From contig QHSP01000037.1 in NCBI GenBank assembly GCA_003220495.1, forward strand, positions 1-64,000: DNA of 64,000 nt, given 5' to 3'. Shown piece by piece: positions 58,083 through 63,136 of the stretch. The DNA comes from Candidatus Rokuibacteriota bacterium (lineage in GTDB: Bacteria > Methylomirabilota > Methylomirabilia > Rokubacteriales > CSP1-6). Position numbers and translations under genes: made by a program. The notes under the pieces were generated by a model, which saw only the letters and a list, made by a program, of their open reading frames with translations, was not told where the DNA came from and searched no databases. Numbering within the stretch: position 1 is the first letter of the stretch; every line of letters starts with the position of its first letter.

Positions 58083-58274
58083 ATGGCTCAGCGCTGTGAC
58101 GTCTGCGGAAAAGGTCCCTCCGTCGGCAATACGATCAGCCACGCTCACAAGCTGACACGGCGGCGGTGGCTTCCGAATCTGGTCTCGATGCGCGCCATGA
58201 TGGCCGGGAAGCCTCGGCGCGTGCGCGTCTGCACCCGCTGCCTCAAGGCCGGGAAGGTCACGAAGGTCATTTAA
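58083..58274 (+). CDS. rpmB: 50S ribosomal protein L28
   Basis: MAQRCDVCGKGPSVGNTISHAHKLTRRRWLPNL...VCTRCLKAGKV. Confidence 0.96.
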   Translation: MAQRCDVCGKGPSVGNTISHAHKLTRRRWLPNLVSMRAMMAGKPRRVRVCTRCLKAGKVTKVI

Positions 58275-58281
58275 GCACACA

Positions 58282-58307
58282 CGGGAGGGGGCTCACGCCC
58301 CCTCCCG
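58282..58307 (+). terminator. Strong hairpin downstream of rpmB
   Basis: CGGGAGGGGGC-TCAC-GCCCCCTCCCG, 11-bp perfect stem; no clear U-tract. Confidence 0.75.
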
Positions 58308-58356
58308 AATGGTCGACGGTGGGAGGCCGCCACCCCCCACCTGCGGAACCGCGTCC

Positions 58357-58389
58357 CTACTTCTTCTTCTTTTTGGCCTTCTTCTTCAT
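58357..58389 (-). CDS. Micro-ORF A, 10-aa poly-lysine peptide MKKKAKKKKK
   Basis: SD GGAAGGAGGTGA at 58398-58409; ATG then AAG-rich codons and TAG. Confidence 0.55.
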   Translation of the reverse strand: MKKKAKKKKK

Positions 58390-58439
58390 CGAGCGTCTCA
58401 CCTCCTTCCGTCGAGAGGTTCGTGCTGCCGCGGTCGGAT

Positions 58440-58478
58440 CTACTTGCCCTTCTTCTTCTTCGTCGCCTTCTTCTTCAC
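58440..58478 (-). CDS. Micro-ORF B, 12-aa poly-lysine peptide (V/M)KKKATKKKKGK
   Basis: Identical SD GGAAGGAGGTGA at 58483-58494; GTG start; TAG stop. Confidence 0.55.
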   Translation of the reverse strand: MKKKATKKKKGK

Positions 58479-58502
58479 CCAATCACCTCCTTCCGCGATT
58501 GT

Positions 58503-59561
58503 TCAGTAGCCCATCGCCTCGCGCCGCAAATGCTCCGCTTGCTCGCGTCCGCGGCGCTCGTAGTTCACGAGATCGGCGTAGAGTTGCGGCAGACACACGA
58601 CCTTGAGCCCGCCCTTCTCGAAGGCGCCGTAGAACACTCCGAGGTCGTACGGCGCGAAGAAGTGGAGCGCGCCGTCCGCCTCGGCGGCGGGCCGCAGGCC
58701 GAGGGCCTGCGCGACCGCAGCCGGATCGCCCTCGAGATAACAGTGCACGGCCGGAACCCTGAGGCTCGGCGCCAGCAGCGCGGCGCCGGAGTTCAAGGTA
58801 AAGGCGTACCGGCGCCCCTCGGCGCCCGCGACCCGCGCGATTTCGCCCATGAACTTCCGCGTGACGCGCTCCGGGGCGAGGTACGAGGTGCGCTCGTTCA
58901 TTCGATAGGTGTACGACTCGCACCAGCCCTCGAGCAGGTCGGCGGGCTTCGACAACCGGAAGCGCTGGCTGTCGTCACGCTCGACCCACGCGAGCTCTTC
59001 GAGCCGCTTGATGACGTTGTGGGAGTGACCGAGGCTCACCTCGGCCGCCCGCCCGAGCTCTTCGAGCCGCCATGCGCGCCCGGGCTCGACGAGCAGGACT
59101 CGGATGACGCGCGTCGCGCGGGGGGCGAAGAGCGATCGGAGGGGCCGCGTCGAGGGCCGGAGGTTGCGCTTGCCCTCCTTCTCGATCAGCGCGTTCTCGA
59201 ACGCGAGGTAACAGTTGCCGGATAAATCAACGAATCCAAGGTTGTTGCTCTTGAGGATGCGTGCGCTCTGGGGACCGATGTAGACCGAGCCGGCTACGGG
59301 GTAGGCCCCTGGAAGCTCACGCCGAATCTCGTTCAGTCTGGTCACAGAGGCTCGGATCTGTCGGGGCTGGCCGAGCGAGGTCACTTCAACGACCACCGTG
59401 TGGTCCTGGCCGGCCAGCTGGAATCGGGCCAGCAAATCGGCGACTTGCCCTCCGATTTTGGCGTTGGTGCTCTCCTGCCAGCCTTTCGCCTTCGGGAGGA
59501 GCTCCCGCAGTCGCTGGGCTACCTGTCGCCGAACCTCCTCGGATTTCAGCACCTTTCTCAT
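58503..59561 (-). CDS. AbiEi-antitoxin-like protein: N-terminal nuclease-like region plus winged HTH
   Basis: VVVEVTSLGQPRQIRASVTRL, YIGPQSARILKSNNLGFVDLSGNCYLAFENALIEKEG, wHTH WRLEELGRAAEVSLGHSHNVIKRLEELAWVERDD; family from memory. Confidence 0.6.
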   Translation of the reverse strand: MRKVLKSEEVRRQVAQRLRELLPKAKGWQESTNAKIGGQVADLLARFQLAGQDHTVVVEVTSLGQPRQIRASVTRLNEIRRELPGAYPVAGSVYIGPQSARILKSNNLGFVDLSGNCYLAFENALIEKEGKRNLRPSTRPLRSLFAPRATRVIRVLLVEPGRAWRLEELGRAAEVSLGHSHNVIKRLEELAWVERDDSQRFRLSKPADLLEGWCESYTYRMNERTSYLAPERVTRKFMGEIARVAGAEGRRYAFTLNSGAALLAPSLRVPAVHCYLEGDPAAVAQALGLRPAAEADGALHFFAPYDLGVFYGAFEKGGLKVVCLPQLYADLVNYERRGREQAEHLRREAMGY

Positions 59562-59570
59562 GCTCCAGGC

Positions 59571-59590
59571 GTTTCAGCATCTGCTGAAAC
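59571..59590. promoter_or_regulatory. Operator-like palindrome GTTTCAGCA-TC-TGCTGAAAC
   Basis: 9-bp perfect arms, 2-nt spacer, 9 nt upstream of the wHTH gene start. Confidence 0.7.
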
Positions 59591-59649
59591 CATACGGACT
59601 ATTGAAAGTACCTGTCAAGCGAAAACTTACGAGTCGGAGCTATAACAGG

Positions 59650-60554: not shown

Positions 60555-60929
60555 CTAGGGTTCGGAATCCTCGATGCGCTCCATGGTCTCGTCGTCGAGG
60601 CCGAAATAGTGGCCGAGCTCGTGGACGACCGTGTCACGCACGAGCTCCTCCATCTCGGCCTCGTCGGCGCAGTCTTCCTCGATCGGCCCCTGATAGATGG
60701 TGATCGTGTCGGGGAGGACGTTGCCGTACGCCGAGTCGCGCCGCGTGAGGTCGATGCCGCGGTAGAGCCCGTAGAGCGTGTCGGGCGGCTCGACCCCGAC
60801 GTCGGCGAGGGTCTCGTCGTCGGCCCAGTCCTCGACCACGACGGCGATGTTCGCGATCTTGTCCTTGAACCGTTTGGGCAGGCGCCGCATGGCCTTCTCG
60901 ACCAGCGCTTCGAACCGCCGTCGGTTCAT
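60555..60929 (-). CDS. Zincin-like metallopeptidase family protein
   Basis: VVHELGHYFGLDDETMERIE zinc motif; ITIYQGPIEEDC. Confidence 0.9.
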   Translation of the reverse strand: MNRRRFEALVEKAMRRLPKRFKDKIANIAVVVEDWADDETLADVGVEPPDTLYGLYRGIDLTRRDSAYGNVLPDTITIYQGPIEEDCADEAEMEELVRDTVVHELGHYFGLDDETMERIEDSEP

Positions 60930-60994
60930 GAATTCACCGTCGCACCTCGACGAGGGTCCACGGGCGGCCAGCCGGCCCGCGCCGCGGCGGGCAT

Positions 60995-63136
60995 CTAGAG
61001 CCCTCGGACGCGCTCGACGTTGATGACGTCCCGGACGTCGCGGATGGCGGCCATGATGTCCTGGAGCTGCCGGAGGTCGGCGACCTCGACGACGAAGTTG
61101 TTGATCCCACGCCGGTCGTCGGTCACCGTCACCTCGGCCTTCGTGATGTTGCCGTTGCGCGCCGAGATGGCGCCCGTGATCTCCGAGAGGAGCCCGGGCC
61201 GGTCCTTGCCGATGTAGACCGCGATCCGGACGGGTCGCTTGCCGGGCTCCTCGACGTCCCACTCGACGTCGATCAGCCGCTCTCGATCCAGCACGCTTTT
61301 GGCGACGGTCAGGCAGTCGCGCGCGTGCACCGTGAGGCCGCGCCCGCGCGTGATGAAGCCGACGATCGGATCACCGGGCAGTGGGTTGCAGCACCGCGCG
61401 AATCGAACGAGCAGGTCGTCGACTCCGCGGATGCGCACGCCGTCGACCGGCGCCGGCCGGGTCGCCGACGGCTTCGGCTTCTCCGGCGTCTCCAGGAGCG
61501 CGTTGGGCGCCAGCTTGTTCAGGACCTGGTGGACCGAGCTCTTGCCGTAGCCGACCGCGGCCATCAGGTCGTCGGGGCCGGCGAAGCCGAAGTCGGCCGC
61601 TGCCCGCTTGATCTCTTCCCCGCCGAGGAGCGCGGTGGGGTTCAGGCGGTATTTCCGCGCCTCGCGCTCGAACAGCTCGCGCCCGAGCTCGATCGAGCGC
61701 GCGCGCTCCTCGACCTTGATCCACTGGTTGATCTTGGCTCGCGCCCGGGTCGACTTGACGATCTTGAGCCAGTCGCGGCTCGGGTGCTGGTTGGGCGAGG
61801 TCACGATCTCGACGATGTCGCCCTGGCGGAGCGTGTAGCGGAGCGGAACGAGCTTCGCGTTGACCTTGGCGCCCACGCAGTGCTCGCCGACCTTCGTGTG
61901 GACGGCATAGGCGAAGTCGAGCGGCGTCGCGCCCTCGGGGAGCGCCTTGACGTCGCCCTTGGGCGTGAACACGTACACCTCGTCCGGAAAAAGGTCGACC
62001 CGCACGGTGTCCATGAACTCGCGCGGGTCCTTCGTATCCTGCTGCGTCTCGATCAGCTGGCGCAGCCACACGAGCGATTCGTCGAGCTTGTCCTTGCCGG
62101 CCTTGCGCTCCTTGTAGAGCCAGTGGGCCGCGATGCCCTCCTCGGCGATGCGGTGCATCTCGCGTGTGCGGATCTGGATCTCCACCGGATCGCCCTTGGG
62201 CCCGATCACCGTCGTGTGGAGCGACTGGTACATGTTGACCTTCGGCATCGCGATGAAGTCCTTGAAGCGTCCGGGCACCGGCTTCCAGAGCGAGTGGATC
62301 ACGCCGAGCGCGCCGTAGCAGTCGCGGACCGAAGCGATGATGACGCGTACGGCCGTCAAGTCGTAGATCTCGTCGAACTCGCGGCCCTGGTCGTGCATCT
62401 TCTTCCAGATCGAGTAGAAGTGTTTGGGCCGGCCGCGGATCTGCGAGTCGATCCCGACCTCGGCCAGCTTGCGCTGGAGGATCGCGATCACCTGATTGAT
62501 GTCGGCCTCGCGCTCGAGGCGGCGCTTGGCGACGCGCTTCTGGAGGTCGACGTAGTCGCCCGGGCTCAACGAGCGGAGCGCGAGGTCCTCGAGCTCGGCC
62601 TTCACCTTCGCCATGCCGAGCCGGTGGGCGAGCGGCGCGTAGATGTCGAGGGTCTCCTGCGCGATCTTCTTGCCCTTGTCGGACGGGAGATAGTCCAGGG
62701 TGCGCATGTTGTGCAGCCGGTCGGCGAGCTTGATCATGAGGACGCGCAGGTCGCGCGCCATCGCGACGAGCATCTTCCGGAAGTTCTCGGCCTGCCGCTC
62801 TTCACGCGACGAGAACGCGAGCTTGCCGATCTTCGTGACGCCGTCGACCAGCTCGGCGATTTCGCCGCCGAACTCGCGCTCGAGGTCGGCCTTGGTCGCC
62901 GCCGTGTCCTCCAGCACGTCGTGCAAGAGGCCGGCGGTCACGGTGATGACGTCCATCTTGAAGTCGACCAGGAGGTTGGCGACCTCCAGTGGATGGCTCA
63001 GATAGGGCTCGCCGGAGGCTCGCTGCTGGCCCTGATGGGAGGCGGCCGAGAACCGATACGCGCGCGCGAGGACATCGAGATCAGCGCCTGGCTGATATTT
63101 TGGAATTTCCTCGATCAGCGTCTCTAATTGTGTCAC
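60995..63136 (-). CDS. rel: Bifunctional (p)ppGpp synthetase/hydrolase
   Basis: HD domain LLHDVLEDT/KLADRLHNMRTL, synthetase GRFKDFIAMPKVNMYQSLHTTV, TGS, ACT; RxKD motif (RFKD) of bifunctional Rel. Confidence 0.95.
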   Translation of the reverse strand: MTQLETLIEEIPKYQPGADLDVLARAYRFSAASHQGQQRASGEPYLSHPLEVANLLVDFKMDVITVTAGLLHDVLEDTAATKADLEREFGGEIAELVDGVTKIGKLAFSSREERQAENFRKMLVAMARDLRVLMIKLADRLHNMRTLDYLPSDKGKKIAQETLDIYAPLAHRLGMAKVKAELEDLALRSLSPGDYVDLQKRVAKRRLEREADINQVIAILQRKLAEVGIDSQIRGRPKHFYSIWKKMHDQGREFDEIYDLTAVRVIIASVRDCYGALGVIHSLWKPVPGRFKDFIAMPKVNMYQSLHTTVIGPKGDPVEIQIRTREMHRIAEEGIAAHWLYKERKAGKDKLDESLVWLRQLIETQQDTKDPREFMDTVRVDLFPDEVYVFTPKGDVKALPEGATPLDFAYAVHTKVGEHCVGAKVNAKLVPLRYTLRQGDIVEIVTSPNQHPSRDWLKIVKSTRARAKINQWIKVEERARSIELGRELFEREARKYRLNPTALLGGEEIKRAAADFGFAGPDDLMAAVGYGKSSVHQVLNKLAPNALLETPEKPKPSATRPAPVDGVRIRGVDDLLVRFARCCNPLPGDPIVGFITRGRGLTVHARDCLTVAKSVLDRERLIDVEWDVEEPGKRPVRIAVYIGKDRPGLLSEITGAISARNGNITKAEVTVTDDRRGINNFVVEVADLRQLQDIMAAIRDVRDVINVERVRGL

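Follow-up and report, generated by a model that had tools for sequence, protein, structure and literature searches.

Tandem ultrashort lysine-rich peptide genes across the Rokubacteria: candidate free polycations acting on nucleic acid

Two open reading frames of 12 and 10 codons, composed mostly of lysine codons, follow one another on the minus strand of a contig from a Candidatus Rokuibacteriota bacterium. We asked whether ORFs this short, here termed ORF B and ORF A, are genes and, if so, what their products might do. Throughout, the window is the whole stretch of DNA that was analysed, 64,000 nucleotides of contig QHSP01000037.1. The genomes compared lie within the phylum Rokubacteria/Methylomirabilota and are nearly all metagenome-assembled genomes (MAGs).

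The minus-strand order is a winged-helix (wHTH) gene, 8 nt, the 12-mer GGAAGGAGGTGA, ORF B, 30 nt, GGAAGGAGGTGA again, ORF A, and two hairpins (Table 1). Since the micro-ORFs follow the wHTH stop after 8 nt, the three genes probably form a single operon, for which the TTGACA-18-TATGGT element is the likely promoter. Just past the -10 of this predicted promoter lies a perfect inverted repeat, TTTCAGCAGATGCTGAAA (window 59572-59589), a candidate autoregulatory operator. The hairpin directly 3' of ORF A is the probable transcript end; it was not called in a simple terminator scan because it has no T-run.

Table 1. Positions of the micro-ORFs and of the features around them (window coordinates unless a contig is named).
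Feature	Position	Strand	Details
ORF B (slot 1)	58440..58478	minus	GTG 58478 to TAG 58440; MKKKATKKKKGK; 12 codons
ORF A (slot 2)	58357..58389	minus	ATG 58389 to TAG 58357; MKKKAKKKKK; 10 codons
Shine-Dalgarno (SD) 12-mer GGAAGGAGGTGA of ORF B	58483..58494	minus	GGAGG to start, 7 nt
SD 12-mer GGAAGGAGGTGA of ORF A	58398..58409	minus	GGAGG to start, 11 nt
Strong hairpin GGTGGGGGGTGGCGGCCTCCCACC	58318..58341	minus	directly 3' of ORF A; from folding; sequence kept in the window's family
Second hairpin CGGGAGGGGGC..GCCCCCTCCCG	58282..58307	none	between ORF A and rpmB; common to two convergent transcripts
rpmB (ribosomal protein L28)	58083..58274	plus	convergent neighbour of ORF A
Winged-helix gene	58503..59561	minus	352 aa; C-terminal AbiEi_2 domain (PF09952, E 6.3e-8)
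Promoter-like TTGACA-18-TATGGT	59589..59618	minus	upstream of the wHTH gene; assigned from sequence only
Stand-alone micro-ORF	contig C1, L045:1478-1516	minus	product MAKKKATKKKKK in the window's genome

An earlier, sequence-only reading of the locus had reported identical SD sites before the two ORFs, fitting the anti-SD better than chance would allow. Indeed, the same 12-mer precedes both, and in the whole genome (5,984,922 bases) it is found at these two places and nowhere else; the spacings to the start codons are unequal (Table 1), which corrects that reading. This MAG lacks the 16S 3' end, and the usual anti-SD was assumed. The longest uninterrupted stretch of complementarity to it averaged 8.1 nt for micro-ORFs of the window's family. 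For 38 ordinary window genes, each taken at its best candidate start, the mean was 4.7 nt and the maximum 7. In the genome as a whole, the codon pattern KKKA-x-KKK was found only in ORF B and in one further micro-ORF, and an SD followed by (M/V)(A)KKK matched three times, versus none for the reversed control pattern.

The locus is conserved well beyond this genome. The 200-bp region of ORFs B and A matches 56 of 57 genomes and all 24 genera of the window's family. We read 56 orthologous loci, 54 from that family and two from neighbouring families of the order: ORF A was intact in every one and both slots were present in 49, and in the remaining seven slot 1 is gone and ORF A lies directly behind the wHTH stop. 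In families f5, f6, f7, f9 and f10, we read 30 loci; in 29 of them, a tandem pair of micro-ORFs lies behind genes for a wHTH-nucleotidyltransferase and a HEPN protein, and the thirtieth lies at a contig end. One carrier of both ORFs, G081, a complete genome from the Methylomirabilis family, is a single contig of closed size (2,752,854 bp). The sequence-only reading had proposed looking in relatives for an SD followed by M/VKKKAxKKK near the wHTH gene or rpmB. The first landmark held, the wHTH gene preceding the pair in all families read; linkage to rpmB proved incidental, being confined to the window's family.

The predicted peptides have 12-32 aa in f5-f10, where they shade into sequences resembling histone H1 tails, such as MAAKKPAAKKAAPKKAAPKKAAAKKTGKGC, and for the most part 10-13 aa in the window's family. 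At 10-13 aa, homology between slots amounts to position and composition only. Most slot-1 peptides of f10 (L106-L130) end in GRGC or GKGC, with a single cysteine, and those of slot 2 end in KKK. Six members of 23-32 aa had no Pfam match up to E 1, the ORFs of 10-13 aa being too short for such a search, and three of the longer members had no match in NCBIfam. No description of these micro-ORFs was found in the literature searched. As read from these genomes, they make up a phylum-wide family of predicted ultrashort lysine-rich peptide genes, 10 to 32 codons long and arranged in tandem.

The window's genome also has a third copy that stands alone (Table 1), a unit present in at least 34 other genomes. 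In the 35 loci read, one of which adjoins a transposase on a short contig of f5 and may be mis-binned, TTGACA occurs in 34, followed after 16-18 nt by TAGCAT or a similar hexamer (TTGACA-17-TAGCAT in the window's family). The SD comes after a leader of some 33-109 nt, and the start lies exactly 7 nt past GGAGG or GGGGG in 35/35. The ORF has 10-13 codons and a TAG or TAA stop, and a terminator hairpin, CGGCCCTG(T/C)CG...CGGCAGGGCCG, shows compensating changes among loci; the predicted transcript measures about 140 nt in the window's genome. In most genomes the unit is flanked by a convergent nrdR and by a radical-SAM gene in divergent orientation, and in genera g7 and g23 by a pyrE-like gene upstream and an EamA-like permease gene downstream (both named by eye). 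The cassette of promoter, SD, ORF and terminator stays whole while its neighbours change, and the stand-alone copy is very probably a transcription unit of its own.

Codon-level variation was evaluated in 200 micro-ORF rows, a few of which are alternative starts; as with the conservation counts, the loci are not phylogenetically independent, and the signs agree across families. Among single-transition neighbours of AAG, we counted 172 AAA (synonymous), 18 AGG and 8 GAG. In the window's family, AAA made up 7.5% of lysine codons at the wHTH locus and 10.7% at the stand-alone locus, the share in ordinary window genes being 9.3%. Thus, AAA tracks the lysine usage of the genome and the wobble positions are free. 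Exchanges of lysine for arginine were mostly to CGN codons, multi-base changes that keep the charge, and the alanine and threonine positions used several codons each. ATG, GTG and TTG interchange as start codons, length differences are whole codons with the frame kept, and GG[AG]GGTGA precedes 198 of the 200 rows. Lysine dominates the composition, followed by alanine, with threonine, glycine and arginine; acidic residues are almost absent. Proline is common only in the f5-f10 peptides, and the window's own copies have none.

Because AAA and AAG occur at the genome's usage, lysine is exchanged for arginine, start codons are swapped and acidic residues are almost lacking, we conclude that selection acts on a cationic peptide. 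The micro-ORFs are almost certainly translated peptide genes under selection. The sequence-only reading had claimed selection for translation and had named missing conservation and missing synonymous variation as grounds against it; the phylum-wide conservation, synonymous variation and conserved charge strongly back the claim. As it had also stated, ordinary gene callers would miss both ORFs; genes of 10-32 codons are below the length that such programs handle. Finally, the rows end in TAG (129) or TAA (71) and never in TGA, which is the stop of 68 of 99 neighbouring genes at these loci and of 22 of 38 window genes. Since a step from TAA to TGA equals one from TAA to TAG, and TAG and TAA are commonly exchanged, the missing TGA looks like a constraint.

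In each of the 34 loci scored, two palindromic boxes lie just upstream of the stand-alone -35 element, 31-33 bp from one another. Measured against an NrdR-type core consensus, after which the boxes are called NrdR-like, the pair reached at least 16/20 in 20 of the 34 loci; 0.06% of dinucleotide-resampled sequences did so. In the same genomes and in related ones, the nrdJ promoters carry a similar pair at 32 bp. The boxes of the stand-alone copy are kept where its neighbours differ and are weaker at loci lacking the divergent gene; they are weak in g7 and g23, as is box 2 in the window's own genome. Upstream of either kind of wHTH operon, and hence before ORFs B and A, no NrdR-like boxes above shuffles were found, so that a box pair at the promoter marks the stand-alone copy only.

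NrdR uses a pair of 16-bp palindromes with spacers of 14-17 bp (PMC12051234). In the geometry of its boxes, the stand-alone copy resembles the ribonucleotide reductase operons of the NrdR regulon, nrdJ included; it differs from them in that its product is no reductase and its boxes lie upstream of the -35 rather than over the promoter. We lean towards the hypothesis that NrdR controls this copy. In f10 (L196, L203), an operon of wHTH, HEPN and the two micro-ORFs (wHTH-HEPN-K1-K2) is clustered, as judged by eye, with genes for a class II ribonucleotide reductase (nrdJ) and a dCTP deaminase (dcd), which would constitute a second link to deoxynucleotide metabolism. Separately, nrdJ of the window's family (L237, L247-L255) contains long in-frame stretches that split alignments in most genomes except the window's own; these stretches are probably inteins.

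With some 8-10 lysines and practically no acidic residues, the peptides of 10-13 residues are not expected to fold. SDs stronger than that of any ordinary window gene, together with the consensus-like promoter and terminator of the third copy, suggest that they are probably made in quantity. Our preferred reading, to which we assign a probability of about 0.5, is that they are unfolded, freely diffusing polycations acting on nucleic acid. ORFs B and A would be expressed from the 3' end of the winged-helix regulator's operon through their near-perfect SDs, and the third copy from its own sigma-70-type promoter, with its own SD, terminator and paired NrdR-like boxes. Carrying a charge of about +8 or more and almost no acidic residues, the products would, we infer, neutralise or compact nucleic acid in a manner comparable to a detached histone-H1-type tail. 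The stand-alone copy would be supplied once NrdR repression lifts, during DNA synthesis or a shortage of deoxynucleotides. More tentatively, the peptides may serve as an encoded, polyamine-like counter-ion, with at least one copy under the dNTP sensor NrdR, made in step with DNA synthesis. Among the functions offered by the sequence-only reading, a peptide binding nucleic acid or the ribosome still fits best; nothing was found in support of an antimicrobial or toxin role.

The nearest known counterparts are H1-like Lys/Ala proteins, such as the AlgP C-terminal domain, the PhaF tail and Chlamydia Hc2. They share with the micro-ORF products a low-complexity Lys/Ala(/Pro) sequence, positive charge and variable length, and the f10 members of 23-32 aa read as one or a few of their repeats. 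The AlgP tail, 195 aa long, binds DNA (PMC9239181). The micro-ORFs differ in being whole genes of 10-32 codons, in tandem and with no folded domain. Over the 200 rows, their strongly basic, Lys/Ala(/Pro)-rich, low-complexity composition places them with the H1-like proteins, a family-profile match being absent.

The leading alternative, which we consider unlikely, is that the peptides associate with the ribosome or rRNA as miniature ribosomal or assembly proteins particular to this lineage. Ribosomal proteins that are very small and basic are known elsewhere, and these peptides are tiny, strongly basic and, from the strength of their SDs, seemingly well translated; moreover, rpmB adjoins ORF A in the window's family. 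However, that linkage is seen in one family only, length (10 to 32 aa) and sequence are free to vary at a single slot, which would not be expected of a ribosomal protein whose binding site is fixed, and Pfam and NCBIfam yielded no family match. Less likely still is a target in polyphosphate, or in some other polyanion granule, instead of DNA or RNA. The window does have a RelA/SpoT gene upstream, and the H1-like, KPAA-rich AlgP associates with polyphosphate granules (PMC9239181), but no copy has a polyphosphate gene beside it and the relA/spoT link is absent in other families.

The position of the pair just behind a wHTH gene in all families read also raises the improbable prospect that the peptides belong, as accessories, to a toxin-antitoxin or defence module of the wHTH/nucleotidyltransferase/HEPN kind. 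The wHTH-nucleotidyltransferase and HEPN proteins of f5-f10 match the PADLOC candidates PDC-M05A (4.6e-44) and PDC-M05B (3.5e-10), and the window's wHTH protein matches PDC-M05A weakly. These candidates, a nucleotidyltransferase and HEPN pair, are described as resembling toxin-antitoxin modules (PMC12988326). The described system has no lysine micro-ORFs, however, and the locus is core and vertically kept rather than sporadic. The window's family has the wHTH/AbiEi_2 gene only, with no HEPN homologue at the locus and no adjoining AbiEii among the genes read, and no gene of this kind adjoins the stand-alone copy. Upstream of its wHTH locus, the window has a gene resembling Zincin_1 metallopeptidases (60558-61262, minus strand), and in f9 (L202:4036-4407) a similar gene directly precedes the wHTH-nucleotidyltransferase gene (by eye); it reads as a trace of a gene order common to both kinds of operon.

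Very improbable is an RNA product, in which the SD and purine-rich tract would recruit or sequester the 30S subunit, or the stand-alone transcript would be a small RNA. Every copy has a very strong SD, and the stand-alone unit is short, with a promoter and a hairpin terminator. Yet start, stop and frame are kept, the wobble position varies at the genome's codon usage, and the charge survives multi-base changes from lysine to arginine. Rfam gave no match at threshold for the micro-ORF elements, only two sub-threshold hits; with codon behaviour this protein-like, we rejected an RNA-only element.

Least likely of all is the translation-arrest leader suggested in the sequence-only reading, in which polylysine would stall the ribosome and regulate a downstream gene; we rejected it because nothing constant follows. 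Very short ORFs, strong SDs and residues able to slow ribosomes are indeed shared with leader peptides, and K10 reporters mildly slow ribosomes in B. subtilis lacking YkpA (PMC11381351). Unlike leaders, the micro-ORFs have no regulated gene downstream on their transcript: behind ORF B comes only ORF A, and behind ORF A and the stand-alone copy come strong hairpins and then convergent or variable genes (rpmB, recG, lptC, acyl-CoA dehydrogenase, ornithine cyclodeaminase, nrdR and EamA permease). A different lysine-rich ORF, which counts in favour of such a leader, does precede an ABC-F gene in this genome. This fourth micro-ORF, MAKGTGMRKEKKKPKKKKK, encodes 18-21 aa behind a strong SD, a few nt before the ABC-F ATPase gene, and is present in several genera besides the window's own (L194:322-381 (G000:C38), L192, L195, L206-L228). 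It is a possible ABC-F leader; in L223-L226 and L228, it is kept with no ABC-F gene directly behind.

At 10-13 codons, these genes, which belong to the core of a bacterial family both in tandem and as a stand-alone cassette, lie near the lower size limit of protein genes. If the peptides are indeed free polycations on nucleic acid, the charge neutralisation of H1-type tails could rest on a free oligolysine peptide. Through the NrdR-like boxes, a connection of deoxynucleotide supply to a counter-ion for nucleic acid can be tested directly. Finally, the natural series at one slot, from a 10-aa oligolysine to 32-aa H1-like tails, offers a probe of the minimal sequence for function.
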